From Siphonodentalium dalli (Eukaryota; Mollusca; Scaphopoda; Gadilida; Siphonodentaliidae): a stretch of DNA of 64,000 nucleotides. A program made the translations under genes and the position numbers. The notes below the pieces were generated by a model. That model was not told where the DNA came from. It was given only the letters and a program-made list of their open reading frames with translations, and searched no databases. Of this stretch, positions 2,169-61,200 are shown in pieces. Position 1 is the first letter of the stretch; each line of letters opens with the position of its first letter. The stretch spans positions 15,252,440-15,316,439 of the forward strand of contig CP136061.1 in assembly GCA_032622095.1 (NCBI GenBank). The letters run 5' to 3'.

Positions 2169-5100
2169 CTGAAATATAGAGAACAGTGTCACATATAAGA
2201 AACATATAAGGAGGTGTGGTTTCATGGCTGCTATCACGGGGATAGTTAAATATGTGACATGCATGTATGTGTTTTATAATAGAGCGCATGCCATGCATAG
2301 ACACACAGTGTATAATAATTCAGTTGTTTATGCATCCAGTCTCTTCATACGTACACATTGTAATCATTCAGATTGTAAATTACATGTGTGTGCTCTGCTT
2401 TGTTAGAGAATACTACTAAATTTACAAACCATATATAGCCTCTTTCCAAAAAATAGCATTTGCATCGACACTCTATCGAGGTTAAGATGAATGATAACTA
2501 TCCGATCGGTTAAAATGTTTATCATTCAGTAAATGATAACTTGAAAACTCCAATAATATTGCTATTTGTGTGCAAGGGAAATTTTCGGCAAGATGTACGA
2601 AGTGTGTTTATTATACGCATGTGTATCCAGAGGATATGCATACGCAAAGATCGTTCGTTCTTTTGTAACGACAAGACATCGCCTGTGTCACCCCTGGTCA
2701 AGTGGTCCTGCTAATATGCTATGGTGCGATTGGTCCTGCTGAATTGCTATGATACTGTTAGGGCAAACTGATGCTGTTAACATAAGGTACCGTTATAATT
2801 TTTTAATTTGGCTTTTTCTCGGTGTTCTGATAATTTGAATATATCCAAGAAAAGCCATTATGCTTAGCCATATATATTGCGAAATATGTGTATTAATTGT
2901 TGAAAATGGACTATAATCAAGACGGTTATTCGCGTCGTTTTAGAAACACCAGCGCAGTCATTATTATATTTTTCAAAAATATAATGTGTTCTTGGATGTT
3001 TCATATATACACACACGAAAATGAAAACTTTAGAAAAAATAACGGTACTTTTTCGTAACGGCATTCAGCAGGACCACCAGCATCATAGCATATTAGCAGG
3101 ACCACTTGACCAGGGGTGAGTGTATCCCCATGTCGCATTTTAGGCGATCGGTCATCTGTGTCAGTAACACAATCGTCTTATAAGCCTGTACACCGTGACT
3201 GTGTGATTATAATGCAGGGACGTTTTCATTGACTGTATATGAAATATATGTAACTATGCCGGAAATCAAAATGCCTAAAGCGAAAAATAATAGGCAAAAT
3301 CCAAAATGAAAAGAACGTCTATTGCCACCGTTGATAAATCATCGTGACAAGTGACCGAACAGCAACTCGGAAATATAAACCGTTAATCTCAATGTCAATA
3401 CAACTCCCGAGGTTAGCAAATGGTAATCCTATCAAACAGCCATGGCATTGGATACATGTAAAATGGTATAAGACACAGACAAAACTTCACGGGCGCATTA
3501 ATTGAGTATAGTGCGTGGATACACCCATGAGTAAACCGCGGAGTTTCGAAGATTATAAAACATTCGTAGAACACTCACGGCCGTTTCCTTCGTCGCACGA
3601 GGATGATGGCGATACAGAGCACGGTGATTAGTAACAAACCCGCTGCTAACACTATGTACCAGTTTTCTACAATCCACGACTGAAAATAAAAAGGTGATTG
3701 TCAGCACAGTATACATGTACATAACATAACCATCTGTTATACACACGAATAACAATGCCGATTACATAATGTACAGCAGTTCTCAAAATGACAATGCCAC
3801 TCTCATTACATAATAAAACTCGTTCTAATTATTGAGAAAGTTTTAATTGACCCCTTTTGCATGATGAACTACTGCAGATTGAATTAAGATCAGGGTACAT
3901 TCGTCACTAGAATTTGTGTTCTTTCTATCAGTTGTTTTGTTTTTCCATATCCGTAGTTACGATACGGATTCGAGCAACCAAGCATGGGCACACGAGCTTT
4001 GTGTGTAATCGTCGAGTATACCACCACATGGCATATAAACAACGTAATTGAATAGATATAATCACGGAAAACATATCTTATTTTGAGAGATTTTTTAACC
4101 CTGTGCCAATGCATTCTCTTATATATGCGAGTCGACCATAGGTCGCCTCGCATATATAAGAGAATGCATTGGCCTAACAATTTTTTATCATTTTTTTTAA
4201 ATAAATGTTTCTTACAATTTTAGGACATAAAATAAAAAAAACATCCATTGCAGGGAGCCCAACACATATATAGAAGCATATAGAAGAGTGTCGTCTGCTC
4301 ATGTTTGTCTGGGGCTCTGTATGGGTGAAATTATAAAATTGTTATGGTCGACTCGCATATATAAGAGAATGCATTGGCACAGGGTAAAAAATCCCGACTT
4401 ACGACTGGATTTGATATGGCGGGTCACATATCTAGAAAGTACATAATTGTAATACGACCCTGCCTAACTATGCTAGGACATAAAATAAAAAACATCCATT
4501 ACCCTGCAGGGAGCCACACACATATATAGAAGCATATAGAAGAGTGTCGTCTGCTCATGTTTGTCCGGGGCTCTGTATGGGTGAAATGTGAGTGGCAAGA
4601 AGTTTTAACGGCACAATTTTCTAAAAAACGGACTCGTAGTCGTCAATTCTGCGAAAATGTTTTTGGACGATGATGATGACGACGACGACGACGACGACGA
4701 TGAAGACGATAACGCTGGTGATGACGACGACGACGATGAAGACGATAACGCTGGTGGTGACGATCACGACAATGACGACGACGATGATGAATTAATAGAC
4801 TGGCGGCAGCGGCGGCCGACGAAGACGACGATGATGATGAATTATTAGACTTACGTCACTCGGCGGTGCTGATTTTTGTTCTGCTGTCAGAGCACCGGGA
4901 CTGATGAGTCCAGTATAAATAGGAAGCGGTAAAATGGAGTCTATTTTCATGAGAGGGACTTTATTCCATGATTCCCTCAGAATATCTTCCTTCACAAATC
5001 CGTCATCTCCGGAAATCTTCACCTCTACCCGCGATATAACATTTCTGAAAAACAGGAAGATGAAATCGTCACATCTATACCCGCGATATTCCATTTCTTA

Positions 5101-8100
5101 AAAACAGGGATATGAAATCTTCACCTCTACCCGCGATATAACATTTCTGAAAAACAGGAAGATGAAATCGTCACATCTATACCCGCGATATTCCATTTCT
5201 TAAAAACAGGGATATGAAATCCTCACCTCTACTCGCGATATAACATTTCTCAAAAAAACAAACAGGAAGATGAAAGCTTCACCTCTACTCGCGATATAAC
5301 ATTTCTGAAAAACAGGGATTTATTTAGAAGGATGTAGGTTAAAGTTGCATTCAGGGTTCCAGACATCCACAACAACAACATAAAACATTTGATCTGAAAT
5401 CGTTTTCTGCTTTGTTCTGTTGAATTCTGAGATATTAACTAATTATGAGATATAAACTGGACCTATAAATAAAAAATTATATTATTGTTGTTATTGAAAA
5501 ATTAACTAAAATCAAATGAATAATTGTTGGTTTCACAGTGCAACTAATTTTTGTTTCGGTCTTTCAGATTGGAAAGTTCCCTCTTCTGTCTCTGAATTGA
5601 TAAATTCAGTGACTTCAATAAGCCTTTCCGGAGCATAACAAGCCGTATAAACCCGGAGCATAACAAGCCGTATAAACCCGGAGCATAACAAGCCGTATAA
5701 ACCCGGAGCATAACAAGCCGTATAAACCCGGAGCATAACAAGCCGTATAAACCCGGAGCATAACAAGCCGTATAAACCCGTAGCATAACAAGCCGTATAA
5801 ACCCGGATCATAACAAGCCGTATAAACCCGGAGCATAACAAGCCGTATAAACCCGGAGCATAACAAGCCGTATAAACCCGGAGCATAACAAGCCGTATAA
5901 ACCCGTAGCATAACAAGCCGTATAAACCCGGAGCATAACAAGCCGTATAAACCCGGAGCATAACAAGCCGTATAAACCCGTAGCATAACAAGCCGTATAA
6001 ACCCGGAGCATAACAAGCCGTATAAACCCGGAGCATAACAAGCCGTATAAACCCGGAGCATAACAAGCCGTATAAACTCGGAGCATAACAAGCCGTATAA
6101 ACCCGGAGCATAACAAGCCGTATAAACCCGGAGCATAACAAGCCGTATAAACCCGGAGCATAACAAGCCGTATAAACCCGGAGCATAACAAGCCGTATAA
6201 ACCCGGAGCATAACAAGCCGTATAAACCCGGAGCATAACAAGCCGTATAAACCCGGAGCATAACAAGCCGTATAAACCCGGAGCATAACAAGCCGTATAA
6301 ACCCGGAGCATAACAAGCCGTATAAACCCGGAGCATAACAAGCCGTATAAACCCGGAGCATAACAAGCCGTATAAACCCGGAGCATAACAAGCCGTATAA
6401 ACCCGGAGCATAACAAGCCGTATAAACCCGGAGCATAACAAGCCGTATAAAACTATTTCGCGTATTGTTTTATTCCCAGAAATGTACCAAAAGCGAGAAC
6501 TCCTAAAAAAATTCTTTAATCAGAAAAACATGATGTTGAGAAATGGAAAGTATAATCAAAACATGGAGAAAAAGAAGACATGCATTATGTTAAACATATC
6601 ATCATCATCCTCGTCATATTCGTCATCATATATAGTCGCCGCCGCCATCGTCGTCATCACCATCAATGTGAGACACCAAACCGACAAGGGCCTTTAAATT
6701 ATGACATAAAAGTCGGCATTTTTATGACATAAAAGTCGGCATTTTTTTTACCCTGTGCCAATGTATTCTCTTATATATGCGAGTCGACCATATGTCACCT
6801 CGCATATATAAGAGAATGCATTGGCCTAACAATTTTTTACAATTTTAATAATTTTTTCTTGTATTTTATAATTTCACCCATACAGAGCCCCAGACAAACA
6901 TGAGCAGACGACACTCTTCTATATGCTTCTATATATGTGTGGGGCTCCCTGCAGGGTAATGGATGTTTTTTATTTTATGTCCTAAAAATTGTAAGAAACA
7001 TTTATTTAAAAAAAATGATAAAAAATTGTTAGGCCAATGCATTCTCTTATATATGCGAGGCGACCTATGGGCGACTCGCATATATAAGAGAATGCATTGG
7101 CACAGGGTAAAAAATCCCGACTTACGACTGGATTTGATATGGCGGGTCACATATATATATCAAAGCCGAAACAGTAACATTTCACCCAGACCACTAAAAA
7201 TATCGACGATCCGCCGCAAATCAAACGTTTAACGTTTAACTCACTTTTATAATTTCTCCATATCTCCAGTATAATATTCGTAATCTAACTATAACTCACC
7301 CCATATTTCCAGTATAATGTTCGTAGTTTGTGTGAACCATTATCTTATCCGATAGAGGTTGATGTATAAACTCGGTCATTACTCTTTTGATGGATGATCG
7401 TAAAAGGTTCTCATTCTCCGCAGACACTTTACCATCCAGATATATAATCAACTGTCCATCCGTGGCTGCAGAAATAAATTATAAAATTGTATAGATATAG
7501 AAATCCTAGCGGCTGGAAACACATGCGTTCTGAATCTCTATATATATAGATTAAGACAAAAACTTTACCATCTAGTTATAAAATCGACTGTCCGTCAGTG
7601 ACTGAAGAAATAAATTTAAAAATGGTTGCAAGATGCATAAATCGTAGGGGCTGGAAACTCATGCGTTCTGAATCGCTGTAGCTTCTAACAAAAACTTTAC
7701 AATCCAGTTATAAAAGTCAGTAGCTGAAGAAATAAATTCACAAACTTGTTGTAATAATATAGAGATCATAGGGGCTGGAAACATGCGTTCTGAATTACAA
7801 ACTTGTTGAAACCCTACTACGTATCACGGTCCCATCACTTAGACATTTCTTAGACAACGTAGATTAAATATCTCGAAACGACTACTATACCGTTATTGGT
7901 GCATTGTGTTGCAAATCGAGTTATTGTTTTTAGAACTTTTAATCCGATACAGATATCCCGATGTATCATTGTTGAGTACTCGTTACTCAACTGTTGAATT
8001 CAATTTCCTCAAAAAATTATCACTCAACAGTTACTTTTTGAGTAGACATTTATAGTTAATACGATGTTCAGTGTACGGTCGAAGGCCTCCATTAAAGTTG

Positions 8101-11100: not shown

Positions 11101-14100
11101 AAGTTCCTTCCAACCCAGGGGGCACCGGAAATCCCATGGTGGACAGCCTTTTCATTATTTATTTGCGTCATACCTGAAAATCCCTCGGTGCAGACACATT
11201 GATATTCAATGTGGGCGTCGTGACATATCCCGTTGCCAGAACACGTGACGTTGACGCAATCATCGATGCTGGTTTCACATGATAGCCCCTCCCACCCGGC
11301 CACACAGTGACAGGAATATCCGAACACGTCGTCAGTACACGCTCCAGAATGAAGACATGGCGAACTGAGACATTCATCAATATCGGTCTCACACCGGTCT
11401 CCTGTAACAATGATGGTAACATTATAGTGACACTCCACAGTATCGACAGGGAGGGTACAAATAATAACATCGGTCACCTGTAACAATGATGGTAACATTA
11501 AAGTGACACCCCACAGTATCGACAGGGAGGGGTACAAAGAATAACATCGGTCACCTGTAACAATGATGGTAACATTATAGTGACACTCCACAGTATCGAC
11601 GGGGAGGGGTACAAATAATAACATCGGTAACCTGTAACAATGATAGTTACATTATAGTGACACTCCACAGTATCGACAGGGAAGGGTACAAATAATCAAT
11701 TAACCCTTTTATCAAGGTGCAGCGTTGAAGATCAGGGAGCCTCACATATATAAGAGAAGAGGGATGGGTCAATTACTATCATCTAGAGTGATGCAAACAA
11801 CGTGGCAATTCTAATCAAAATCAGTCATAAACTTGTTTTATTATAATGACCATGTTGTTTGCGTCGTTCATAGAGCGCGTGATTGTATTTTGCGCTAAGC
11901 CGTGGCTCAAATTCATTCATTTGTTGCATATATTCTGTTGCGTATAAAAGGGGATGGTCCCATAAGAATGCTCTCCCAATCGCGGGCGACAACTGTATAA
12001 TAATAATAATTAAATTGACATGCATGTATCTACATGTGTATTGTGTATCTAAATACGACTAATCACGATATTGTCCACAAATGATGGTCATATCTGGAAA
12101 AGAGACTGTCGTCAAATAGTGTATGTCTTGATAGCTTAAAAATTGGTACATACCTGTAAAACCATCTCGACAGAGACACTTGTAAGCAAGATGGACGTCA
12201 ATGCAAGATGCTTTGTTCAAACATCCGTGACCTTCGCAGTCGTCGACGCTGACGTCACACGTTGTTCCACTCCAACCGGCTACGCATGCGCACGAGTACC
12301 CATTTATGGCGTCGGTACATGTGCCATCGTTAGAACATGGATGGCTGATGCAATCGTTTATGTCCTCCTCACACAGATGACCTACAGATTAAACAAGAAA
12401 ACTATAGTCAGAAATGGTAACGCGCTTAAGATCATATATTATATACCCATGATTGTAATTATAGAATCTTTTTAATTTCTGTTATTTGTAATTGGGGCAT
12501 AGCTTATCACAAACCAAAAATCAACATTATTGACATAATGTAAACGCCAATAAACGAAATTGAAATTCTCAACTACACCTTTTACCGGGCTCGTCTCGGG
12601 GTCGCACTACAACCTGTAATGTGTCCCAATAATTAACATTCTATAAATAGAACCCCCATGCGCTATGGCAGCGCCCAGGCGAAACAAGAATTTGTACATT
12701 AGTATACACGCGGCGCGCGTTATAACTCTCATAGATGTAGTTTACCCAAATACCATACACTGTTCAATCAAAATGACAGAAAATCAAACACAGTACCACT
12801 AGTTTGTTCTTGGAGATCAAAATCACTTCTGCAGAACCTAACCTTGAGATCATCATTGACATCATCGTCGTCGTCGTCGTCGTCGTGCTAATTTTTGAGT
12901 TTGCGGGGGTTATTGGAACATTATATTTGAGAATGGATTTATGCCCATGGTGTGTGATGTTCTGAAACTCAGTGTTAATTAGGTTCTATCTCACAGCTGC
13001 ACTTGCATTACCGATACGGAGCACTATTCATAATTATACTGAACACAAGTACAAATATATTACACAAACCCAGAGTGTATATTACCGTACCTCCTTGTCT
13101 CCATGTAGAGATCGGTGAATCCTGCTTGCCAGTTACGGATCGCAAAATACGAAGTTAATGCTAATAAACAAATTTTGCGGAGATAATATCCATATTCACC
13201 ATAAATAAGTCTGATTTTCAGCAGCATTTTTCAGTAATGATAAAATAAACAATTGAGTATTCGGTGGTATTAAATGTTGTCTACCTAGCTTATTGTTTAG
13301 TCTTGCACGTCGGATAAAGTTAGCATGTGAATCACAAGTGCGCGTTAGCATGGATAACTATCTCCTTAATAGGTCTGAACATATGGTGCCGGACAGTTTG
13401 ACATTGAGGTCCACAGTGTTAATTTGGGGACCAATTTGGGTATATAGAGAAAGTAAACTAAAAAAATCATCATGCTGAAGAAACTTTGATAAAAAAATTT
13501 GATAAGAAATATACTTTCCATAGAAGATGAGGCGTAAGATGCAGAATGGGCTCAACAGAAATATAAACTTTATAAAGAAACTAAAACACTTCTTTACCCT
13601 TTACCCAACAAACCGGCCAAAAACGGCCAAATAAAGCTTCAACAGCCTAAAATATCTTCGGTCTGTCTCAATAACACCATACAAATATGGATATCATTGG
13701 AACCGGTTCATTGACCACATTGTGATGGTTACAGTTATGCCCTGTGCCAATGCATTCTCTTATATATGCGAGTCGACGATAGGTCGCCTCGCATATATAA
13801 GAGAATGCATTGGCCTAAAAAAATCTTTTTTTAACACTTTTTACCATTTTTTCTTATAATATTTTCTACATTCTTTGACAATTTGATCATTTTTAATGTG
13901 TTAAGCCAATGCATTCTCTTATATATGCGAGGCGACCTATGGTCGACTCGCATATATAAGAGAATGCATTGGCACAGGTACGTTCTGTTGGGTAAAGGGT
14001 TAATTTGATAACAAAGATAGTTTCCAGAGAAGATGAGGCATAAGCAGAATGGGGTCCACATAAGGTAAATATAGTGACGCTATGTGGGGTATAGTGTCAC

Positions 14101-17100
14101 TAAATCCGCCCTCTGTGGACCTCATTTTGCAAATGTCCGGCAACATATTTTCAGCCATTTCCCTAAAATATCAGCCGAATCCCTCGATCTAGAAAAAAGT
14201 AACTTCCGGAGTCACGTGATTAGAGTGTCCGACTTGTCTTTCCTATCAACACATCGAGATGAGTTCGAAGCTCGTCTGTGCAACACATCGATATGAATTC
14301 GAAACCCGTCTATGTAACACAATGCGATTAGTTCGAAGCCCGCCTGTGGACTAACGAGTTTCTCACAGCAATGACTTGGTTCAAATCTCGATCCAAGTTG
14401 TGACACTTGGGCATCGTCAGGTGTATTGTGATCGCTTCGTCGTACCTCGGCGAGAAATAGGGACCTGGTTTGTTGAGTAAGTATAAGCCGCTCCATTAAA
14501 GCTCATGTCAACTTGCAGCAGGTACAATTTAAGACTCGATATTGCTCAACAACTGGGGAATAATGTGAAGTACTTAGGGTCCAACATTATGTTAAAGAGA
14601 TAAGTGCTTTATAAGCCTCTTTATTAGGTAAGTATGGATGGTGTCTCCTCCCTTGTCTGGTATATGCGCGATTCGAGTGATTTTGAAGTGGTTCGCAGGA
14701 TTCATACCCCTATTATAACTGGTTCTAGGTATTCATATGATCATTTTAACCGCTGTGCAATATTAAATAGCAATGGTTGTATGCAGCTTTTATAAAATCA
14801 AATAATTTGTCAAACTTTTGATTAATTAGTAACCAGAATTAAATTGTTTGATGTAATTCATTGTCATAGATCTTCATGTGTTAAAGCTATGGACAATATT
14901 TCAGCAAATGTGTGAACATTATCATATTAGTGTGAAATGACCATGATTGTAATCAATATTAGTGTGAAATGACCATGATTGTAATCAATATTTTATTAAC
15001 CGGATTCACCTTTCTCTGTTAACTTGTATCCATTGATGTGGGTAGGGCGTGACACCCTCAGTATTGGTATCGTAGAACTATGTTGTTTTGTGTACCTACC
15101 AGCGAATCCTGACGGACATTCACAGAAGAAATTCGTCTACTGGTTTTATGGGTGTGGGTAGGGCGTGACACCCACATTATTGGTATCGTATAACTCTGTT
15201 GTTTTGTGTACCTACCAGCGAATCCTGACGGACATTCACAGAAGAAATTCGTCTATAAATATACTGGTTTTATGGGTGTGGGTAGGGCGTGACACCCTAT
15301 TGGTATCGGAGAACTCTGTTATTTTGAGTACCTACCAGCGAATCCTGATGGACATTCACAGAAGAAATTCGTCTACTGGTTGTATGGGTGTGGGTAGGGC
15401 GTGACACCCACATTATTGGTATCGTATAACTCTGTGGTTTTATGGGTGTGGGTAGGGCGTGACACCCACAGTATTGGTATCGGAGAACTCTGTTGTTTTG
15501 AGTACCTACCAGCGAATCCTGACGGACATTCACAGAAGAAATTCGTCTCCATGTCCCGACATTCTCCACCATTATGACAGGTCGACGTCTGGCAGTATTT
15601 CACCTTCTGTGTGCAATCATGGCCAGTCCAGCCTGAAAGATGGACATAAACATTTAAAATCATGACCAGTCCAGTCCGTAAGATGGACGTAAACATTGAA
15701 CGGACTTGTACTATAAAAGTGTGGTATGCAAACATCCTATATAATGTAATTATAAATTATGGTCTAAAGGGCTAGACGTCGCCACAATTCAATACATATA
15801 TATAATAATCAATAATAATAATCAATAATAATAAACAATAATAATAATCCATCCATTTATTGCACGCATTATACAGGTACCCCTATTCAATGCATGGGAC
15901 AATTATTACCCTGATGAGCCTGAACACTCAGTAACCATCTACTGCTCTCCGGGACAGTGGAGGTACAGCCACAATGTGGCTATAGCATGCTGACAATATC
16001 TTTCTCTGCTCATTATCAGGTTTTCAACGCATGGGTGGTGCAAAACAGACTCGGGGACGAGCGACCTTATTCAGGTGTAAAACTTGGCAATCCAACAATT
16101 GCACGCCGATCAATTTGACCACTGTGGGGGAACTGCTCCTGGCCATTTGGTTCTCTACCGAGCTTTATTTACATTCTCTACCGAGCAAAGTTTACGGACG
16201 GCATATACTAATTTTCTAAAGCAGAGAATCGAGTTATTCGCAGAGAACCGAGCGCTCGGTAGATAATCGGAGTCCTCAGCAAAGAATCGGAATCGGAAAA
16301 TAAAAAGTCAATTTCTGACATGTGTATTTCGGGATTAGTTTTTAACTTTTTTTGTACACACACCAATGGCCAGTGACAATAATTTCACGGTAGCTCTATG
16401 AAACACACGAAACACTGTTCTAATTCTGTTGATTTTTACGTTTTATGCCGCGATTACTCGATAGAGAATCGGAATCGTCGCTAAAAATCCTCACGAGACT
16501 CGGTAGAGAACCAAATCTCTAGGATTAGTTCCTCCACAGTCAATTTGACCAAGCCACTGTTGCGTGAAACTTACATTAGTCCAGCGGCAGGGCTGTGAAC
16601 TCAAATCGCTGTGTTTACAGCGTAGGCAAGTCCGATGCGCTGATCACTGGACCATGGAGCTCCATGCATACCGAACTTTGTGAATTGTTATCCAACATGT
16701 AATGGGACCCTATTCCTGTGTCGTTTATGTTTTGTTGTTATGATTTCACGCCACCATATAGCTTACTGATAGGCAAGCTATAGTAATGATATATACGAAA
16801 AATGCAGTGGTGTCAAACTGGATAAAACTGGGGCCGGTTTAATTTGCAAATAAAACGTTTTGAAGATCATTTTATCAAATCCAGTCGTAAGTCGGGATTT
16901 TTTTACCCTGTGCCAATGCATTCTCTTATATATGCGAGTCGACCATAGGTCGCCTCGCATATATAAGAGAATGCATTGGCCTAACAATTTTTTACAATTT
17001 TAATAATTTTTTCTTGTATTCTTTAACAATTTTATAATTTCACCCATACAGAGCCCCAGACAAACATGAGCAGACGACACTCTTCTATATGCTTCTATAT

Positions 17101-20100
17101 ATGTGTGGGGCTCCCTGCAGGGTAATGGATGTTTTTTATTTTATGTCCTAAAAATTGTTTATCAGAGAACCAACATGATTGTGGCGACCTTTATACTGCA
17201 CGTGTGAACTAAACTAAACTCACATGCACGGCGGCACTAATGCCGCACTATGATATCCGTAATAATAGTATACTGCACATGTGAACTAAACTAAACTCAC
17301 ATGCACGGCGGCACTATCATATAGATGTAGACTAAAATAAATACACCCCGTGGCCGTGACCTACTAAAATACACCCCACCGCGCTACACCCGTGTCCCTT
17401 AAAACTATAGTTTGGCGTCAATACAAAAACGTTCAAAGCCCATTAAAGATTGCCGCAGTTTCCCTCAAACGTGGTTGCTGACAGTGCACGTGTGTTATGG
17501 TCAACAATTAGCATCGGGGTACCTACATTCCATACATCGGGGTACCTACATTCCATACATCGGGATACCTACATTCCATGCATCGGGGTACCTACATTCC
17601 ATGCATCGGGGTACCTACATTCCATGCATCGGGGTGCCTACATTCCATGCATCGGGGTACTTACATTCCATGCATCGGGGTACCTACATACCATACATCG
17701 GGGTACCTACATACCATACATCGGGGTACCTACATACCATACATCGGGGTACCTACATACCATACATCGGGGTACCTACATTCCATGCATCGGGGTACCT
17801 ACATTCCATGCATCGGGGTACCTACATTCCATGCATCGGGGTACTTACATTCCATACATCGGGGTACCTACATACCATACATCGGGGTACCTACATTCCA
17901 TGCATCGGGGTACCTACATACCATACATCGGGGTACTTACATACCATGCATCGGGGTACCTACATACCATGCATCGGGGTAATTACATACCATGCATCGG
18001 GGTACCTACATACCATGCATCGGGGTACCTACATACCATACATCGGGGTACTTACATTCCATACATCGGGGTACTTACATTCCATACATCGGGGTACTTA
18101 CATTCCATGCATCGGGGTACTTACATTCCATACATCGGGGTACCTACATACCATGCATCGGGGTACCTACATACCATGCATCGGGGGTACTTACATTCCA
18201 TACATCGGGGTACTTACATTCCATGCATCGGGGTAATTACATTCCATGCATCGGGGTACCTACATACCATACATCGGGGTACTTACATTCCATGCATCGG
18301 GGTAATTACATTCCATGCATCGGGGTACCTACATACCATACATCGGGGGTACTTACATACCATACATCGGGGTACTTACATTCCATGCATCGGGGTACCT
18401 ACATACCATACATCGGGGGTACTTACATTCCATGCATCGGGGGTACTTACATTCCATGCATCGGGGGTACTTACATTCCATGCATCGGGGTACTTACATT
18501 CCATGCATCGGGGTACCTACATTCCTCGCATCGGGGTACTTACATTCCATGCATCGGGGTACCTACATTCCATGCATCGGGGTACCTACATTCCATGCAT
18601 CGGGGTACTTACATTCCATGCATCGGGGTACTTACATTCCATGCATCGGGGTACCTACATTCCATGCATCGGGGTACCTACATACCATGCATCGGGGTAC
18701 CTACATTCCATGCATCGGGGTACTTACATTCCATGCATCGGGGTACTTACATTCCATGCATCGGGGTACTTACATTCCATGCATCGGGGTACTTACATTC
18801 CATGCATCGGGGTACCTACATTCCATGCATCGGGGTACTTACATTCCATGCATCGGGGTACCTACATTCCATGCATCGGGGTACCTACATTCCATGCATC
18901 GGGGTACCTACATTCCATGCATCGGGGTACCTACATTCCATGCATCGGGGTACTTACATTCCATGCATCGGGGTAATTACATACCATGCATCGGGGTACC
19001 TACATACCATGCATCGGGGTACCTACATACCATGCATCGGGGTACTTACATTCCATGCATCGGGGTACTTACATTCCATGCATCGGGGTACTTACATTCC
19101 ATGCATCGGGGTACTTACATTCCATGCATCGGGGGTACCTACATACCATGCATCGGGGTACCTACATTCCATGCATCGGGGTACCTACATACCATGCATC
19201 GGGGTACCTACATTCCATGCATCGGGGTACCTACCTACCATGCATCGGGGGTACCTACATTCCATGCATCGGGGGTACTTACATTCCATGCATCGGGGTA
19301 CCTACATACCATGCATCGGGGTAATTACATTCCATGCACATGTTATTACCAACATCCTCGAGCGTTTAATGTCCGCTCCAGTCTCCACGTGGTTCAGATT
19401 CCGATCACGTGGTTCTGATCACTTTTGTATATTATGCAAATAAAATATATTTCAAGCACGTGGTTCTGATATCCGAGTTACATATATTCCATGCAGATTG
19501 TATTGCCGTCATCCTCGCAATCCTCTCCTGTTATGCACGTGCATGCACGTGGTTGGCGGTATCCATGTTATACCTTTCATGCATATGTTCCTGTCGTCAT
19601 CCCCACACTTGCTCGTGGTTGACGGTGTCCGTGTTACCTACATTTAATGCATATTTTCTTTCCGTCATCCCCGCGCGTGCATGTGGTTGACGGTGTCACC
19701 TGTTACCTTATACCTTTTATACATATGTTATTGACGTCATCACGTCATCATGGTTGATGGTGTCCGTGTTACCTACCTTTAATGCACGTGGTTGACTGTG
19801 TCACGTGTTACCTACCTTTAATGCACGTGGTTGACTGTGTCACGTGTTACCTACCTTTAATGCACGTGGTTGACGGTGTCACGTGTTACCTACATTTAAT
19901 GCACGTGGTTGACGGTGTCACGTGTTACCTACCTTTTATACATATTTTCTTGCCGTCATCCCCGCGCGTGCATGTGGTTGATGGTGTCACGTGTTACTTA
20001 CCTTTAATGCACGTGGTTGACTGTGTCACGTGTTACCTACCTTTTATACATATTTTCTTGCCGTCATTCCCGCACGTGTAGTGCCCACTCCAGTTGTCAC

Positions 20101-22936
20101 GTGGTTCACAGTATGCAGCACACTGCTTCCCGTAATAATTCTTGTTACAAAAGACCTGGACTTCCATCTTGAGCCTGCATGGAAAACGTGGGCAATAATG
20201 ATGATCTATCTCTTGATCTCTTTCCAGCAAGTTTTATATAGATTCCCGGGTATAACAAAATATTTGAATCGAGGACACATGTCCAGAGAAGCTTCCATCA
20301 ATTGATATTGATTTAAACAATATTTATTAGCCCCAATATTACATTTATGATGAACAACATTTAGATGATGGAAACATGAGTAGAATAGAAAAGGGGAAGA
20401 GGATGTAGCAGCAAGCAGATATGTGCTTTTGTTGAGCTATCTCCTCAGACAAGTAGAAAAATTGTAGAAATCAAGGAAGATCGAGCGAATGGCAAGTGGT
20501 CGAGTTAGAGAAACAATAGGTTTAAGAAGTGATGGTATATTAATATTATGATGTACAGACGAGTTTACAATAAGTGTTGAAATGATAAATAAGCTTATGT
20601 GGATAATAATGAGAGGGGTGTATTCACAAGGAATACGAGACAGAGATAGGTGAAGCGATAGAAATAAAGAGCTTGTATGTGAAAGAAAAGTCGGTACCAC
20701 TGTTATGAACATTTTTAGACTAACTTGTGGAAAGAATTATTTTGAAAATGAATTGTTTTGAAAATAAATGTGGAAACTAAATATGGAAACTAAATATGAA
20801 AACTAAATATGAAAACTCCATGGGTTATCGTTGCTATGCCGTTGAATTGTTAGTGTATTGTTTGAAACGTCCGCTTTTTTGAATGAAGTATTGCGTAGCT
20901 CGGAATATTTCATTATTTATTTCAGATGATAGCAATGTTATGCCTTTGAGTAAGATCTTGGTAGTTAAGAAAGTCGGGTCAATATTTGAGAATGAGTCAG
21001 ACCTGAGTTGAGTATATCTTTGACAGAATAATAGAAATCCTAAGTGTTTATGCGAGCTAACTTCTGTGATAATATAATTGGACATCTGAAGTGGTGGGTG
21101 GGCTATGGGTGTTCGCTTTCTGGAGATGAGAAGAGATTCAGTTTTTTGAGGATTAAAAGTAACAAGCCACTGATGTGCCCAATTAGCTAGTCTCGCGATA
21201 TCCATATTCATCAGATCTGCTGCTCTGTCTGGATCTTCTATAGTAAGAAACATGGATGTATCGTCAGCAAAAAGTCGAATGTGACAAGTAACATTTTCAG
21301 AGATATCGTTTATATAAACTATAAATAGTAAAGGTCCAAGTATAGATCCTTGGGGAACACCTGCTTGTACGGGTTTCCAATCTGAGTTTTCATTGTCAAT
21401 TATTACTCGTTGTTGGCGTTGACTTAGATAACTCTCGATCAATTGATATTAATTTTATATAGAATTTCGTATGACATTCCTGTGACAGTTTGATGTGCTA
21501 TTTTTAGAACAGAAACCCGCGCGAAAATGTTCGGAGTGTACACCAAGAGAGTGTACTCTATCTTGTTAGCACCCTCAATCAAGGAAAACTGCAGACCAGC
21601 TAAGAGATTTGCCGCGAATTACGATCGAAATATACCACTTTATTATGCCTTTATTTTGACGAATATTACCATCTTCACAAAATAAATACAATTTCAGAGC
21701 TCAGCATCAAGTATGTCAAATCTACCGCCCGTGCGTTCGGTCGGTATTGCTTTCCGTGTTCGGATTTTGGAGGTAAAAATTTATGTATTTGTTCACTTAT
21801 GGACTAAAAATTCCGTCCGATTTTCGAAATAGAGGTTTCGGTTTATAGAGGTGATTTTTAGTGATAATGCACTTTTGTGAATTCGGGACCGGACAATTTG
21901 TTCGGTATGGAGATGGATTCGGTTTATAGAGAGCCCGGTTTGGACATATTTCACTGTATATGTAGTCTTGAAATTGGGATTTACAATAAATAGTTTGTTG
22001 TTGTTGAATCTCATGGAAGAGATAGACTATATGTAAGGCCTATGCCTATAATAACAGAGAAGTGTCTCAGTTATATGATAGCATACCCATTGCTATACTA
22101 TCAACCACTGTTATAATGCTTGCCCCATGAGGTTCAGCGAATAAGGTGCATGGCATGTCAGACCACCACAAACGCTCAGTGATGGCGAGGGTTCATGGCA
22201 TGTTAGACCTCTTAGTGATGGCGAGGGTTAAATTCAGATGAAGGCAGAGATCCGCACAATACGACGGAAGATATATAACACGCAGCCCCCAAACTTCGGT
22301 AAAAATATTCAACAGTCGGAAATCCCATGCCTGACACAACATTAAGCGACAATTTTACATCACATATAAAGGTTCAAATGTTCTCAAATTTTGAATTTCC
22401 AACCCGTAAATAGTGCTGAAATTGTCACTTGGATACCCGTGCAGTTGGATACCCAACTTTTTTTAATTTTAGTTTGGTACCCAGCTTTATGAAATCTTAC
22501 ACATGACATGATTGAATTAGTGATTGCCTTTAGTTGTTTTCGAAATGAACTTGTTAAATTTGTGAATTCAAAGTCTTGTTATCTTCTACTATATATCCAT
22601 ATATATATCTGTATATCCTTTATAGACTCGAAAACGGCTGGACCGATTGAGCCCAAACTTCCTATATAAGGGTAAAAAGCCACGGGCAATGTCGTCGCAC
22701 CTCTTCTGAGAATGTCCGAGCACTCCTTCTCCCGTCCCACTGCCGCCGTCTTTGGAATTGTGGTGTTAATCGAGGTGATAGTTAAAGAGCGTTCGTATCC
22801 GCAGTGTCGTTGATAAAGAGCGTTTATATACACGACGAGTATAAATACGGCTCAGTCGACCGTCTCGAGACAACATTTCGTACTTAATTTCGTACTTAGG
22901 GGTTCCAAGGAACTTTGAAACGGCTACCCACAAATG

Positions 22937-22968
<32 letters not shown>

Positions 22969-25900
22969 CAAATCGGATAAAACTGGCGGATTTCGACGAA
23001 AGTTTATACCTAGGTGTACTTTTGTCCGGGGGGTGTTTTGGACGGGTCAAATCTTGACCACGACATGACCTTGACGTTCAAAATGGTCTAATCTTGACCA
23101 TGACATGACCTTGACCTTCAAAATGGTCAATTCAACGTCAAATCGGGTAAAACTGGCGGATTTCGACGCAAATTGATACCTAGGTGCAACACACGTGTCT
23201 CGGAAGCTGTTGCAATTGCTTTTTCGAACAAAGCCATGGGACGAACCACGCCAGTGGCGGGCTAATCTGCTAGTATGTAATATAAAAAAAGCTGAAACCA
23301 CTCAACTGAACGACATGGGGTGACAGTGACCATTTCAGCGTAAAAAGTGGGGATTTATTGTTTTTAGACCAACGGAAGTAGATATTTCTACTTTTGGTAA
23401 AAAAAACATATGGTCTGAAATAGCCGTCAGTTGAAAATTTTAAACCCTTCAACCTTTCAATCTCATGTGGGACATTTCCAACAGTTGGAAAGCTTGATGT
23501 ACCGGTTGGATAGGTCCAACCGAAAATAGAATTATGAAAACCTGGTTCAAGCGGGATCGGGTGCACTCGGAAATTACAAGTTGAACACCCCTCCCACGGG
23601 GATCATCTAAACACGTCCCTGATAACCTGATTAGTGTATATCTCGGCAAGCGTCACAGTTGCTTAATTACATACATATATATAGGTGGCTACTACTAACC
23701 TATACTTAAGCGCGGGATTATTTCTGAGTGAAATGCATGAATCATATTTACATAACATCATATGACTCATAAAGTCAAATTAATAAAAACAGACAATTGA
23801 ATCGTGCTTGGCATTTTACGTAACAATTATACACGGATAGTGGATGAGGTAGACATGTGGGGAATGCGGAAATATGAGACAGATGACAGTTAAAGTCGCA
23901 TTCTACACAGATGACAAATTAAATTTGATTGATTCAGATGCTTTCTCTGTCACGAGGGTGACACATATTAATGCACTCTGGACACATTGAAATGGTTTAT
24001 TATTAATTTTGAGGGATGGTCAGGTAACAAAAGCAGACGACAGACAGAAAAAAAAAAATAATAAAAGAACAGAATTAATCATATTCATTGGTGGTAATTG
24101 TTTGCGATAATAAGTTCAACAAACGACCTATGGTACTTTATTGAACTTATTATCTGAACATGCCCTATGGGAAAATTATTCGTCAATGAGTATTTAATAT
24201 AGAATTGGTTAATTGGGACACGGAAGTGTCAATGACACTGCAGCTCGTCTTGACAAATGATGATAAATTAACCCTTTCTTTACTGAATTATTAATTAGGT
24301 GAGATGTATAGGAAATATAAGAATACGACAGACAGCCGAACAGATAGTACACGTATATAGCAGAAGGATTCCTACCCATTGATGGGCTCTAGCCTCACAG
24401 TGTCAACAAAACTCGATAATTCGTCACGGGCACTCATGTGGTAGCCTCGTCCCGCTCACCTGGATCATGCCATGAATCTCTACTCTTAGCCACGCACGTG
24501 GAGATCATACTCCACCAGTATAAAACCTTGGAACTTTTTGAAGTTTTGACAGGGAACCTTGTAAAGTCGAAAAAATAACACAGGGAATATATTTCTAAGT
24601 TATATATGATCTGTTCCTTAATAATGTATTTCACTGTAGGTGAAGGTTCCAACTCGAAATTTCATGATTTAAGTGACTGTGAGCTTTGCGTCGCTAACAA
24701 TTATGTAATTTCTCATGGGTAATTAATTCAATGTATTGCGATATCGGCTCACAAAAGTAAAAGAAAACATGCAATTTTGAGTTGGGACTTTCACCTACAG
24801 TGAGTACATTATTAAGGAACAGATAATAACTAAGAAATATATTCCCCGAATTATTTTTTCGACTTTATAAGGTTCCCTGTCAAAACTTTAAAAAGTTCCC
24901 AGGTTTTGTACTGGTGGAATATGATCTCCACGGGAGTTAGCCAGAGTAGAGATTCATGGCATGGTCTACTGCTCACCGAGAGTTCGTCATGGTCACTCAT
25001 GTGGTAGCCTCACCCCGCCAGTCGGTGGTGATGTTATGGGTATTTTGAAATTAAAACCAAACACAGACCCAAAAGAATCAAGATTTCTTACCAAACGTAT
25101 TGTCCGGTGTGCACGAGTCGTGTTCCATACGTCGGCGCGACGTGTTCGATCTTCGCGGGGGGGGGGGCATATCCAGTGTACCCGTCGGGTGGACGACGTA
25201 ATCTGTATACATGTACATATTATGTGTCTTAATTAGATTCCTTACCAAACGTATTGTCCTGTGTGCATGAGTCGTGTTCCGTACGTCGGCGCGACGTGTT
25301 CGATCTTCGCGGGGGGGGGGGGGGGGCATATCCAGTGTACCCGTCGGGTGGACGACGTAATCTGTATACATGTACATATTATGTGTCTTAATTAGATTCC
25401 TTACCAAACGTATTGTCCTGTGTGCATGAGTCGTGTTCCGTACGTCGGCGCTACGTGTTCGATCTTCGCGGGGGGGGGGGGGGGGCATATCCAGTGTACC
25501 CGTCGGGTGGACGACGTAATCTGTATACATGTACATATTATGTGTCTTAATTAGATTCCTTACCAAACGTATTGTCCTGTGTGCATGAGTCGTGTTCCGT
25601 ACGTCGGCGCTACGTGTTCGTTCTTCGCGGGGGGCATATCGAGTGTGCCCGTCAGGTGGACGACGTAATCGTTATCATTGCTACCGTCGTCCTTATCCCA
25701 AACGTCGAATTTGAATTTGACCGACCCCTGTGAATATAGAATGGAAGTTATGTATTATATATGTAACTAGCAGGTGGACCCGACTTCGTCCGGGCTGTTT
25801 CCCCTCTGCTTTTCGGCGAATTGCGCGATTTGACCTTGAATTGTCCATTTTGAAGGTCAAGGTCAGGTGGGGTCACGATTTGACCCGTCCAAAACACTGC

Positions 25901-34900: not shown

Positions 34901-37900
34901 TCCACACACAAAAAACAGTTGCACTTCCTCGATCATCTCATTCACCTCGCCCAAGGAGGACACCATGCGCTAAATATCTTCATCTTAAAGGACACCATGC
35001 GCTAAATATCTTCATCTTAAAGGACATCATGCGCTAAATATCTTCATCTTAAAGGACATCATGCGCTAAATATCTTCATCTTAAAGGACATCATGCGCTA
35101 AATATCTTCATCTTAAAGGACATCATGCGCTAAATATCTTCATCTTAAAGGACATCATGCGCTAAATATCTTCATCTTAAAGGACATCATGCGCTAAATA
35201 TCTTCATCTTAAAGGACATCATGCGCTAAATATCTTCATCTTAAAGGACATCATGCGCTAAATATCTTCATCTTAAAGGACATCATGCGCTAAATATCTT
35301 CATCTTAAAGGACATCATGCGCTAAATATCTTCACCTCGCCCAAGGACATCATGCGCTAAATATCTTCACCTCGCCCAAGGACATCATGCGCTAAATATC
35401 TTCACCTCGCCCAAGGACATCATGCGCTAAATATCTTCACCTCGCCCAAGGACATCATGCGCTAAATATCTTCACCTCGCCCAAGGACATCATGCGCTAA
35501 ATATCTTCATCTTAAAGGCACGTGCGGCCTTAGTTGTCGAAAATATTCATATGTGTTCCAATCACCGTAAACATAAAAACATATAAACGCATACAGTTTC
35601 GTTCATATATACCATGACCATCGCGTAAACAGCATGTTATCATAAAGACATACTATATTTTACCTAAGCAAAAGCCTGATTGTGTTACAGAAGACAGCAC
35701 AATGCTACTGGCTAATCACACACAAATGGCATAAACGGTTACTTTTTATGCTCTTGTTTACATAACAATAGTCAAACATATGACAATAACATACTGTTTA
35801 TGCGACATTTCTTATTTGTATACGGACAAAGTCTGTCTACATTTTTATGTTCTTTCTGTTTGTGGCGGTTTTTGACGGGTGGACAAATTTTCACAGGATA
35901 CCCACCGCCAAGGCCAACCGTATCTTTGAGTGCCACCGCACACGCTGCGATTAAAATCGTAAGTGGGGAAAATCGCAGGAGGAAGCATCCAATGCGCATG
36001 CCCACGACAATATCATAGCCAAATCGTAGCAATCAAGCACTGTTTGATTTTACCAGGAAAATCGTGGCGTGACTTTGGCAACGCGCGCGATCGTAGCTGT
36101 CACATGACCACTGTCGACTGGTCATGTTGTAAATACCACGAAAATCGTAGCTGCAAAGATCGCAGCACCGTAGCGTCTGCGGGCAAGCTACGATTTCTCC
36201 ACCTACGATTTTCCCCACTTACGATTGTAATCGTAGCGTCTGCGGTGGCACTTACAATTATTCCAATACACTCGATAGACATGCAACTGGATTAGTGTCC
36301 GACATTGTCATGTTCTTCAGAAATATACATCTTGACAGCTTCACACAAACAGGCCATTTTTCGTCATAATCCACATGGAAATATATTTATAAGAAAGCTG
36401 TTTGCGGGATCAACATTTCTACATTTTGATTAGTTCATTCCGATTCTGACACTACCTGTTCGATATGGACCTTAGACCGCATTCCAAACTGTTCAGTTCA
36501 ACTTCGGAATCTTGCCCTTCTAATATATCCGTGGTTGAATCCACGCACCATTGTATGCTGTGCAGGCACCTTCTGTATCCTTACTTTTACATATATAAAC
36601 GCCGTCACATAATTATGACATTGAGAGTATACATTCTTCACAGGTCATATTCATGTACAAAATTGTGAATAACTTTGCAATAAATACTCATCTCCAGAAA
36701 TGGACGTATATACTTAATTAATTTAACCCTTTGATGACTTCAGCTTCCTGATTTTTTTTTGTTGCGAAAACCCTGTGCCAGTGCATTCTCTTATATATGC
36801 GAGTCGCCCATACGCATATATAAGAGAATGCACTGGCACATGATTTTAATGCTACACCAGCGCAGCTCCCGCCATGGAAGGGTTAAATAACACTTACCCT
36901 CTCCCCTCGTCGAGACAGATTACGAAGAAGTGGTCACACGGGGAGGGGCAGATGCCCCATCGTCCGTCACAGCAGTTACCGTTACTGCCTTTCCCATATC
37001 TGTTATAGAATGACACAAACCGAAGCGATATCGTCCCATCGCCGTTCACGATCTGAAAATGGATTTATTTTCAGTTCAATGGAAGGATTAAAGGCCCACT
37101 TAATTTTCGAACCCCCAGATCACATTATATACAACATATTATATACCATGAACCACCAGATCACATATTATATACCATGAACCCCCAGATCACATATTAT
37201 ATACCATGAACCACCAGATCACATTATATACAACATATTATATACCATGAACCACCAGATCACATTATATACAACATATTATATACCATGAACCACCAGA
37301 TCACATTATATACAACATATTATATACCATGAACCACCAGATCACATTATATACAACATATTATATACCATGAACCACCAGATCACATTATATACAACAT
37401 ATTATATACCATGAACCACCAGATCACATTATATACAACATATTATATACCATGAACCACCAGATCACATTATATACAACATATTATATACCATGAACCC
37501 CCAGATCACATTGTATACAACATATTATATACCATGAACCCCCAGATCACAGTATATACAACATATTATATACCATGAACCCCCAGATCACATTATATAC
37601 AACATATTATATACCATGAACCACCAGATCACATATTATATACCATGAACCCCCAGATCACATATTATATACCATGAACCACCAGATCACATTATATACA
37701 ACATATTATATACCATGAACCACCAGATCACATTATATACAACATATTATATACCATGAACCACCAGATCACATTATATACAACATATTATATACCATGA
37801 ACCACCAGATCACATTATATACAACATATTATATACCATGAACCACCAGATCACATTATATACAACATATTATATACCATGAACCACCAGATCACATTAT

Positions 37901-50491: not shown

Positions 50492-50707
50492 GGTCACCAT
50501 CTTGAAAAATAGGATTAGCTTGATTTTTCGGCGTCGATTGGTAAGTGTCTCCCACACAGTTTCGTGGAGCAAGCCCTCCTTACTACAACTTCTTGTCGCT
50601 CCAGTTATGATTCTTGCGGCTTCGTATTCGATTTCTTCTAGTTCGATAGCTTCTTCGTTGCTACAGGTGTCCCAAACTGAGGAGGCCTACTCCAGGACAG
50701 GACGAAT
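50492..50707 (-). pseudogene. LINE reverse transcriptase C-terminal fragment
   Basis: A 72-codon stretch reads IRPVLE-stop-ASSVWDTC, then EEIEYEAARIITGATR and WETLTNRRRKIKLILFFKM. This is the conserved C-terminal thumb-side region of jockey/CR1-like reverse transcriptases (IRPxLEYAS.VWD ... EAARIVTG). The Tyr codon has become TAG, and no upstream catalytic domain is adjacent. It lies between the two genes. Confidence 0.8.
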
Positions 50708-51414
50708 AAATGATAAATATAGTATTTATAGTCACCCCCTGTCAAGGTTTAATTTATGCCTCCCTGTATATAAGTCAGCGATACTAATTTAATACATGGA
50801 TGGAAATGCTGGAATAACCTGTCACAGTGTGTCCATCTGCGAATTATTGGAAGGGATCAATTATAAAAACTTAACATGTTGACATCAATTAACAAGTTGT
50901 CTTGAGTGATAAATCATGCATGTTTAAAACATGATATACCATGTTAAATCGTGTTATAATCATGATGTATCATGGTTTTATGTCTGATTCGTTTGACCTC
51001 GACCTGATAATAATGTTTCGAGTTCAGAGAAGGATGGTTTCTCTTCTTAGAATGTACAGTCGGCTTCTGTATGTAGCTGGTATAAGCGAGATCACTGGGT
51101 CGCGGCCGTATTTGATGCATCCCGTGGCTTCAGAGATTCTTCCAGCACCGGTATGATATCCAGGGCTGAATTGACACAGGGAGTACCATTGTATAGGTGC
51201 GTTGATCCTAATGGGGAACGTAAAATTATATTATCTTATATGAGCAATAAAGAGCGTTATACTAATCCTCTTAAACGACATTTAAGACAATTGGTACACA
51301 TGGGTCACCTGGTCATGGAATATGCGCTTTTGTCTTGAGATGACTTACGAATTCTGATTCAAAAGTATTCAATTGGCTTCAGATTGGGTTGAGAAGATTT
51401 AAGAAGAAGAAAAA

Positions 51415-51500
51415 GATGATGATGATGGTGGTGGTGGTGGTGGTGATGATGGTGATGATGATGATGATGACGATGATGATGATGATGATGACGACGACGA
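51415..51500. repeat. GAT/GGT trinucleotide repeat
   Basis: GATGATGGTGGTGGTGGT-type run in intergenic DNA, 600 bp upstream of TUSC2. It gives artefactual poly-Met and poly-Ile frames. Confidence 0.9.
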
Positions 51501-52079
51501 CGACGATAATGATGATGTTAATGACGATTACCTTAATGCCGACTGAGACGCAAAGCGCCCCCTCCCGGTCCAAGCATTGCGATGATGAAGAAGACAACAT
51601 TGTAACGACAACGATGATGATGATGAGTTTCCAACCTGAAATTTCCACCTGTTGAAAATGCTGACCATAAATAAGGATGTCAGATACCCCTATTAGGCCC
51701 ATGCTACAACGCCTCTGTCGCGGTGACGGTGATGGTGATGATTACCGGCATGGTAAACGGTCTTAATAATAGACCGGAATGTGTATTACGCACACCCGCC
51801 TGTAGATTACCTCCCCTGTTCTAGTACATCGAAAATTGGTGATGGGGTCATACGTACAGTTTATTTGACTCAAATCTTGTTCGGGACGAGTTAATATATT
51901 GAAGCCTTATTCGCGACTATGACTATACGATGCTAATAGTGTTTGTCTTCTCGCTTGATTCAATATATCGACATGAATAGTGCACAATCATGAATTTAAT
52001 CAATTTGATTGAAACTAAAATTTATGTGAAAATTGCAAGATTCTGGAACCGAATTTAGACCTGTTGTGAATGCACCAGT

Positions 52080-52222
52080 ATGGGTCAACGAGTATCAAAT
52101 TTAGCAAAGAAGGTTGCTAGTCCTGTGACAAACTATGTTTTTCCAAGTAATAGTTCAACGACTTCTGATGATTTTAAATCCAACGCATTGATGGCAACAC
52201 CATTTGTTTTTACACGACAAGG
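52080..52222 (+). CDS. TUSC2: TUSC2 exon 1: myristoylation site and N-terminal region
   Basis: ATG at 52080, donor CAAGG|GTAAGG; 143 nt, phase 2 out. It encodes MGQRVSNLAKKVASPVTNYV, a serine-rich stretch, and the conserved end ATPFVFTRQ-G (human PPFVFTRRG). The ATG was chosen because the family needs Gly2 and Ser6 for myristoylation and the length matches. Confidence 0.95.
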
Positions 52223-58200: not shown

Positions 58201-61200
58201 GTGAATATGATGGACATTATTTCCCCGTAGAATTTCAATCTATTTAGAATGAAAGTTGTGAGCAAAATGAGGTCTCGGTACTATATATAGAGAGAGGATT
58301 GTGAAAAAACTCAAATATTGAACCATGCATATCCAGTGTAGAGTGACAATCTGACATTTATGTTTAAAGTGTTTTATTCACTGATATATATTGGATTTTA
58401 TGCTGTGGTCATATTAAAAATGACAAACTTGATTATTGGGAGTCTCATAAATTCAGTAAGAAAAGAAATAATAGCAGTTATTTTTCTAAATTCAAACCAA
58501 AAAGATATGATTATTATCACTATGACTTGCATGGTGCCTGACAAATGAGTTTCCCTTAAATTGACACACATCCTATTGAAATTCATAATATTCTAATGAC
58601 TCTATGTTTGTGACTGACGCAACATGGTTTAACTGACGTAACACATGACTGACGCAACAATTTTGAGGACCCTTCTACTACTAATTAAGAATTGGGCCCC
58701 CACATTTTCCTCCTCATGGTGATAGTATATACCCAAGAGTGGAAGATTGTGGGAGGTTATAAATCTATAACCTTTTATAAAGTTCTGGTAACAATAATAA
58801 TGGCAACAATTCTCACCACCCGACATCGAACTGCTCTGAAGCACAAGAAAACATACATTCACCATAAGTTCATAACAGACATAAATAATTGACAGAGTAT
58901 GATCCATTATGTCAACACCTTATCGGAAAATCATTAGTCAAATTCCTATTTTCTTTTACTGTGTATTCCAAAAAACTCACATATTGACCAATTTGGAGCG
59001 TACAATTTGTCGCTGAACAAGAACCTCTGTTAAAAAAGACACAGGTTATGTACCGGTATCAGCAGGTATCAGGGGAAAATATTATATCCAGTCAAGTTCA
59101 ATATTCTCTCAACAAGATGAGATAATTATCATCTCCATGATGTAATTCTGAAAATTTCACCTTGGTGTCCAGTTCTATATGAAATGACCCTTCACAGATT
59201 ACAGCTAGATAGCCATTTTCATTCACTAAAGGGGGGGGGGGGGTTGGTAAGCAAAATTTTTGTATGAGTACTAGTACTGGTGCAGAACAAGTCTAAAATT
59301 AATAATTGAGTCATAATAATGTCCAAGTATAGTGTATATATCTGAATATTATACCATGTTTGACCTTTTAAATGACATATATGTAGTTATTATGGGTACC
59401 GATATACCCAGAACTTGAAACATCACAACTAAATCCTTCCTCACACCCTACAGGCCACCTCCCTCATCCGATCATCACCAAACTTCATTCTGATCATCAG
59501 GGTGACCTCTAGATTGGAGCCATCCAAAAGTTTTTTAAATTACTGCCAGCAGCCATCTTGAATATCAAATTTGAATCCATCAGTGCACACTGCAGCCTGC
59601 ATTTATTGTTTTGAAATATAATAGGCATGTTTATGATCTTCTCTACATGTAGGTAGATGGGTACTATCAAATTTAAACACTTTTCGACGAAAAACATGGC
59701 CGTTGGCAGCTACATTGTGTATCTTGGATTTTACTCTTTGCATGACTAAATCCTTTGGCACACCTGCAGAACACATCCCTCATCTGATCATCACCACATT
59801 TCATAAGAATATTTTGGGTGACCACTAGATAGGTGCCACAGATAGGTGCCACAGAATACCGAAAAATCTCATGAATGTCTGGAAAGAAATATAGAATTTT
59901 CACGAGTGGCTACAAGCCACGAGTGATAATTCGATATTTCTTTCCAGTTACGAATGAGATGTTTTAGGTATTCAAACAAAAAACTGTAGGTATTCTTTTT
60001 ATCATATGCGGATTATTTAGGCTCAAATATAGAATTGTCTATTGATCATGCACCACCAAAGTCAAGTACATGTATTTTGATTTCTATAATTTTATTTCAG
60101 GTCTATGTATATTTATCAGGATGGAGATCTCACATACAAATTCTCTCTTTTTTCCCAGGTCTATGCATTTTGATCGGAATGGTGATCTCACATACATGTA
60201 CATGTATGAATTTTATCTTTTTGTCCAGGTCTGTATAATTATCGGGATGGTGATCTTCTTTTTTTTCAGGTCAATGTATTTTGATAGGGATGGTGATCTC
60301 ACATATGAATTTTATCTTTTTTTCCAGGTCTATGTATTTTGATCGGGACTGTGATCCCACACATGTTTTTATCTTTTTTTTCCCAGGTCAATGTATATTG
60401 ATCGGGATGGTGATATCATGCATGAATTCTATCTTTTTGTCCAGGTCTAAGCATTTTGATCGGGATGGTGATCTCACATACATTTATGAATTTTTGTTTT
60501 TTCCAGGTCTGTATTTTGATCGGGATGGTGATCTCACACATGAATTTTCTTATCAGGGATGGTGATCTCATACTAGTACATGTACATGTACTTGAATTCT
60601 ATAATTTTTTCCAGGTCTATGTATTTTGATCGGGATGGTGATCTCGCACATGAATTCTATGAAGAAGTTACAGATGGATCATCAAAAGTAATGAGGCGTG
60701 ACATGCAGATTATTTCACAGGTGATGAAAAAAGTCTAAAAGACGAGCCTAGGTTTAAAAATCTGCTGACTTATTAGTCTGAGAACACAGCTATTTTATTT
60801 GAATGGAATTAGGGTGACATAATTTTATATCAGGTCTTGTACTGGATTACATGCATCAGTCCGTCTGTCCATGTGTCTGTTTGAGTAAATATCTCAGCCA
60901 CAAAGAGCCATAGGCTGATGGATCTGAAAAAATTTGATAGGCTGATGGATCTGAATAAATTTGATATGGTGGTCCCCGTCGGGAGTGGTTTCATGAGAGG
61001 GCAGAAAAGCCACAGAACTCACATTTTCCATTCTAGAGTTGTCATTCATTGTTTATCTGGAAATAATGGTTTTCTGTCCATCTGCGCAGATACATGTATC
61101 TCAGCCATCGCTGATGAGATCTGAATCATATTTGGTCTGGATGTTAGCCATCGCTGATGAGATCTGAATCATATTTGGTCTGGATGTTAGCCATCGCTGA

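Follow-up and report, generated by a model that had tools for sequence, protein, structure and literature searches.

Mirage minisatellites at the splice junctions of a Notch-ligand gene and TUSC2 in a minisatellite-rich scaphopod genome

We analysed a stretch of 64,000 nucleotides from the scaphopod mollusc Siphonodentalium dalli (hereafter the window; G000:C1:15252440-15316439, from a genome assembled into 9 contigs totalling 2.23 Gb), in which a Notch-ligand gene and a second gene that we take to be TUSC2 carry tandem copies of their own splice junctions. These copies are real structures, mirage minisatellites, in which the repeat unit spans the exon-intron boundary; they were found at 8 of 24 junctions in the window and at 10 of 145 other junctions of the genome. 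Our preferred reading, to which we give a probability of about 0.55, is that mirages result from tandem arrays being born and turned over in the usual way in a minisatellite-rich genome.

Splice-junction copies in the window

The Notch-ligand gene lies on the minus strand of the window, as do all its features given below, and its exons 2 to 12 were placed. Spliced through GT-AG introns, exons 3 to 12 give a single uninterrupted reading frame, by which the boundaries of those exons are fixed. The MNNL domain was placed by a Pfam family search match, from which the location of exon 2 was added, while the DSL domain and the EGF repeats are presumed from motifs. Likewise, TUSC2 is the presumed name of the gene whose exon 2 (...SMYFDRDGDLAHEFYEEV...) lies at 60615..60720 on the plus strand. 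No placeable exon was seen in the open reading frames (ORFs) of L030 and L031, the two flanking pieces, out of four, that were read through. For each junction, the 24 bases centred on it were compared with the surrounding sequence, taking the best ungapped match within 800 bp or 330 bp, and a nearby intronic match of at least 18/24 bases was considered a clear copy.

Clear copies were identified for three donors (exons 4, 5 and 6) and five acceptors (exons 6, 8, 11 and 12, and TUSC2 exon 2), while 14 of the 24 junctions, apart from the two weak cases below, had no copy reaching 18/24. The preliminary description of this DNA had listed ten boundaries with copies: eight of these are clear, but the exon 3 acceptor (17/24, no AG) and the exon 11 donor (one copy, no GT) proved weak. 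Its statement that the arrays extend into the intron was borne out, the copies being located on the intron side.

Among the donors, exon 4 (25564..25727) is followed by an array at 25081..25563 made of 159-bp units, each of about 116 exon and 43 intron bases, with copies at +159, +318 and +472. Exon 5 (20041..20174), which presumably holds the DSL domain, adjoins an array of 39-bp units and longer, decaying partial units (19485..20040). A 79-copy array of 23-bp units such as ATGTAGGTACC (17511..19338), which scores 15-17/24 over its scanned part, is probably the decayed continuation of this exon 5 array. The donor of exon 6 (15510..15632; end of the DSL domain and first EGF repeat) has copies at +174, +294 and +410 (15037..15509), which take in about 42 exon bases and keep the GT. 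The nearest donor copies of exons 4, 5 and 6 thus lie at 159, 39 and 174 bp, respectively.

Nearest-copy distances for the acceptors are 43 bp (exon 6), 76 bp (exon 8), 136 bp (exon 11), 52 bp (exon 12) and 108 bp (TUSC2). Exon 6 has a single upstream copy (15633..15697; 20/24) from which the AG has been lost, whereas exon 8 (11174..11401) is preceded by three copies in 76/77-bp units, including about 10 exon bases (11402..11696). The mirage of the exon 11 acceptor (exon, 7300..7465; array, 7466..7740) is degenerate, with copies at -136 and -258, and falls outside the Tandem Repeats Finder list; the lone degenerate copy at the other end of this exon (7255..7299) stands 43 bp downstream. Five copies at 50-56-bp spacing, with about 33 exon bases, precede exon 12 (exon, 4855..5044; array, 5045..5319), and TUSC2 exon 2 is preceded by eight upstream copies that carry the junction motif CAG/GTC and at most about 33 exon bases (60090..60614, plus strand). 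The weak contact at exon 3 (31288..31420) is an array of 20-bp units at 31421..31539, directly adjoining the acceptor. Exon 2, holding the first part of MNNL (36898..37052), has no junction copy; a 41-bp array (37109-38158) begins 57 bp upstream of its acceptor.

The splice dinucleotide is retained in copies of the exon 4 and exon 6 donors, the exon 8 acceptor and TUSC2, but lost at the exon 6 and exon 3 acceptors and at one donor outside the window (L051). Decay with distance from the exon, described at first as the rule, is present for the exon 5 donor and the exon 11 acceptor but absent for exon 12 (nearest copy 21/24, farthest 24/24), exon 8 and TUSC2, and is therefore not general.

It had also been suggested that selection keeps the copies. 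The exon-derived and intron-derived parts of intronic copies are similarly diverged for the exon 6 donor (0.952/0.930), the exon 8 acceptor (0.944/0.933) and the exon 12 acceptor (0.768/0.760). The exon-derived part is better kept in TUSC2 (0.859/0.729), the exon 11 acceptor (0.867/0.776) and the exon 4 donor (0.975/0.614), in part because the intron part of TUSC2 is pyrimidine-rich with indels and the exon 4 comparison takes in the array end. From sequence comparison we see no clear case of selection on the copies, although these last three junctions may be compatible with it.

Chance expectation and junctions outside the window

Local repeats occupy 28.6% of the noncoding positions of the window. 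Raw base coverage was set aside as a null (with it, 8/24 is ordinary, P 0.37), as each repeat of an array then adds to the total. Because a junction is one ancestral position while an array multiplies positions, each array should be counted once; weighted by 1/copy number, coverage is 8.1%, giving 1.9 expected contacts against eight observed (P 4e-4), close to the chance estimate of about two made originally. This weighting was supported by simulation, and with 21 window junctions and four other settings P ranged from 1.5e-5 to 5.5e-4. All window P values are post hoc, since the window is the discovery set.

An independent sample comprised 145 outside junctions: 76 from 40 exons of CCT/HSP60 genes, 39 from 20 kinesin exons, 14 from two other Notch ligands, and 16 from eight kinesin exons picked near contig ends. 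Profile hits, splice motifs and human homologues served to set the exon ends, partly by eye. Of 53 CCT places 40 were used, after dropping two single-exon, nine duplicate and two other places. From 123 kinesin matches 31 were taken, namely the 20 top-listed (two rows with two stops being skipped) and a further eight and three chosen at less than 30 Mb from contig ends, with open-frame lengths already visible; the last three were left out of the 145 junctions. The L042 donor (ambiguous), the L074 donor (beyond the profile) and the L053, L056 and L059 donors (last exons) were not used. CCT/HSP60 exon hits also occurred in near-equal-score pairs 37-170 kb apart (C7:133.43/133.49 Mb, C1:68.37/68.54, C1:54.10/54.27 and C8:26.61/26.65), representing recent segmental duplications or uncollapsed haplotypes.

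Clear copies were found at 7/76 CCT/HSP60, 0/39 kinesin, 0/14 other Notch-ligand and 3/16 end-picked kinesin junctions, i.e. 10/145 in total, with the L037 acceptor (24/24), the L058 and L095 donors and the L099 acceptor as strong examples. In a cross-locus control matching junctions to foreign flanks, none of 2900 pairs reached 18/24. Regional weighted coverage predicts 4.28 copies (P 0.009), a 2.3-fold excess, and raw coverage predicts 9.25 (P 0.45). Pooled weighted results were 12/145 at 17/24 (P 0.007), 8/145 at 19/24 (P 0.008) and 6/145 at 20/24 (P 0.03); at 21/24, without the 16 end-picked junctions, they were 3/129 (P 0.10). Candidate sites in the three extra kinesin exons yielded one clear copy, at the L104 acceptor (24/24).

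Regional distribution of arrays

A larger share of junctions has copies in the window than in the outside sample. Arrays cover 28-29% of the window and its left flank, 17% of the right flank and 6-9% of the 160 kb around the other Notch ligands. Location was analysed for 131 junctions in 27 gene clusters, the 14 junctions of the other Notch ligands being left out. Copies were present at 8/49 junctions lying less than 30 Mb from a contig end, versus 2/82 farther in (P 0.006), and at 5/33 versus 2/82 when loci picked for nearness were removed (P 0.02). Near-end clusters without copies were found on contigs C9 at 23 Mb (0/8), C8 at 27 Mb (0/6) and C6 at 219 Mb (0/4), whereas a cluster far from an end, on C7 at 133 Mb, had copies at 2/12 junctions. 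Intron coverage and the junction-copy rate were correlated (rho 0.67, P 1e-4), in part circularly, because coverage then included the junction arrays themselves. Regional array density is a likely, if unproven, driver of the junction-copy rate.

Dense minisatellites were also noticed near some contig ends, such as at loci L096-L099 (C7, 207-209 Mb) and in flanks L030 and L033. Cluster coverage at less than 4 Mb from an end was 0.09-0.47, and that of L030 and L033 together was 0.29, yet it was 0.013 on C6 at 219 Mb.

Three-base periodicity of donor-side units

Donor-side arrays were tabulated for the window and for L048, L051, L054, L058, L063 and L096. The nearest-copy periods of clear donors are 159, 39, 174, 39, 75, 63, 111 and 30, all multiples of three, and 47, which is not; those of weak donors are 48, a multiple of three, and 31 and 43, which are not. 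Multiples of three thus make up 8/9 clear donor periods (P 0.001) or 9/12 with the weak ones (P 0.004). Clear acceptor periods are 43, 76, 136, 52, 108, 55, 83, 44, 73 and 115, of which one in ten is a multiple of three, and with the weak periods of 20 and 84 (L100, 16/24) the count is 2/12. The difference between donors and acceptors has P 0.001 for clear copies and 0.012 for all.

Origin of the junction copies

Under the reading that we favour, short tandem duplications would arise independently of exons, at a rate that differs from region to region and appears high here, 15 Mb from a contig end, given the array density recorded in the window; that seeding is uniform we infer. A duplication straddling a junction would keep one intact exon edge and splice site, and it would be tolerated because its extra copies fall in the intron, the side on which the copies were indeed seen, whereas a duplication wholly inside an exon would not. 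The array would then expand and decay as any other. In the functional copy, selection would freeze the splice site and the exon side, so that the pair diverges more slowly and junction arrays stay recognisable for longer. When uniform seeding was simulated through the same pipeline, the junction/weighted ratio was 1.06-1.20 if nothing was frozen, and 1.36-1.68 if the exon and the splice site were. In these simulations, a neutral account with such a frozen anchor, a 1.4-1.7-fold effect, can cover a good part of the junction excess: with a 1.5-fold correction, 6.42 copies are expected outside the window against ten observed (P 0.10).

Several points weigh against this account. A residual excess is left after correction (P 0.10 outside the window, and 0.006 inside, the latter post hoc). 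With copy-bearing flanks left out, copy rate and coverage are much less closely correlated (rho 0.36, P 0.07), and contig-end distance ceases to predict coverage (rho -0.19, P 0.35); besides, the 30-Mb cut was set when some junction copies were already known. Neutral seeding does not predict donor periods in multiples of three. Finally, the sample is small, junctions of the same gene are non-independent, and for 16 of the 145 the exons had been chosen for their nearness to contig ends.

The preliminary description had proposed instead that exon edges are mutational hotspots, where tandem duplications are prompted by the splice-site sequence, by R-loops or by repair in the course of splicing, an explanation that we regard as possible but rather unlikely. 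The copy-weighted excess argues for it, both outside the window (10/145 versus 4.28) and, post hoc, within it (8/24 versus 1.9), as does the loose tie between coverage and junction-copy rate in flanks without a junction copy. However, decay from a frozen anchor gives about 1.5-fold of the 2.3-fold outside excess, the rest having P 0.10, and at 18/24 or more no copies were found in the first kinesin set or in the two other Notch ligands. Preferential seeding at exon edges is consequently not demonstrated, and a null that counts one unit per array, together with the frozen-anchor correction, constitutes the bar for any claim of an exon-edge hotspot.

The three-base periodicity raises a different explanation, in which duplicated donors are really used and mainly frame-preserving units survive, donor mirages being filtered by frame and acceptor ones not. 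The periodicity, if real, would imply such use and provides a direct test of it, and the contrast between donors and acceptors is what the explanation has in its favour. We nevertheless consider it improbable: the pattern was spotted post hoc, later spacings within the same arrays depart from the rule (154 at the exon 4 donor, 116 at the exon 6 donor), the L051 copy has no GT, and units of the exon 4, exon 5 and L058 donors run at once into in-frame stops, so that their inclusion would still break the protein. If true, mirages would be an active means by which exons lengthen and introns move, and repeat-rich regions would provide a steady stream of in-frame exon extensions and shifted introns.

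An assembly artefact, with repeats collapsed or expanded at exon edges, is very improbable even if the paired CCT clusters might be uncollapsed haplotypes, as copies differ by substitutions and indels, units and copy numbers vary between loci, and the authors of the amphioxus PGBD5 study state, in the portions available, that resequencing argues against assembly error there (PMC3087553/PMC3902484).

Other repeats and elements in the region

A 2-kb tandem array in the flanking piece L030 (L030:4851-6866) is open on both strands (671 aa on the plus and 618 aa on the minus strand), and an ORF at L030:9211-9522 contains a P-loop-like stretch, GPTMSGKS, and is perhaps a mobile-element ATPase. A search for the mollusc haemocyanin family PF14830 found no match, nor did it yield a positive control. 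In the window, a reverse-transcriptase-like fragment at 20837-21448 on the minus strand (VPQGSILGPLLF...FADDT) is presumably, judging by its motif, a broken element lacking long terminal repeats (non-LTR). A family of short repeats that have inverted arms (...AGAGAATGCATTGGCACAGGG...) was observed at 6790-7130, 16900-17100 and 26540-26600 of the window and in L031, some copies lying in Notch-ligand introns.

Comparison with known systems

The amphioxus mirage minisatellites mentioned in the preliminary description are indeed published, for Adh3, troponin C, the globins BflGb6 and BflGb9, and PGBD5 (PMC3087553, PMC3902484). In the accessible parts of these reports, boundary copies occur at 5' and 3' boundaries, the units measuring 10 to about 160 bp, and AG/GT is kept in many copies though not in every one; splicing is suggested to be undisturbed, length instability is described, somatic at Adh3, and intron gain is proposed (PMC3087553, PMC3902484). 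No report of mirages outside amphioxus was present among the literature matches listed, in a search that most subscription papers lay beyond. Structures described gene by gene in amphioxus are now found in an animal with a much larger genome, at 10 of the 145 junctions sampled there (16 of the 145 being end-picked).

As far as the amphioxus accounts were available, both systems share tandem copies of the exon-intron boundary at both boundary types, with AG/GT kept in many but not all. The amphioxus genome is roughly 0.5 Gb, in contrast to 2.23 Gb here, where many junctions are hit within one gene. The occurrence of mirages was, moreover, compared here with array density, for 145 junctions besides those of the window, and the mirages are known from the sequence of one assembly. 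The model of Rogers, named in the part of PMC3087553 available, derives new introns from proto-splice sites that have been duplicated in tandem, and it has in common with our case a duplication holding splice sites within a gene, although the copies described here adjoin existing junctions. Ordinary intronic minisatellites resemble mirages in unit sizes and copy numbers but differ from them in that the mirage unit takes in the exon edge, one of its copies being coding.

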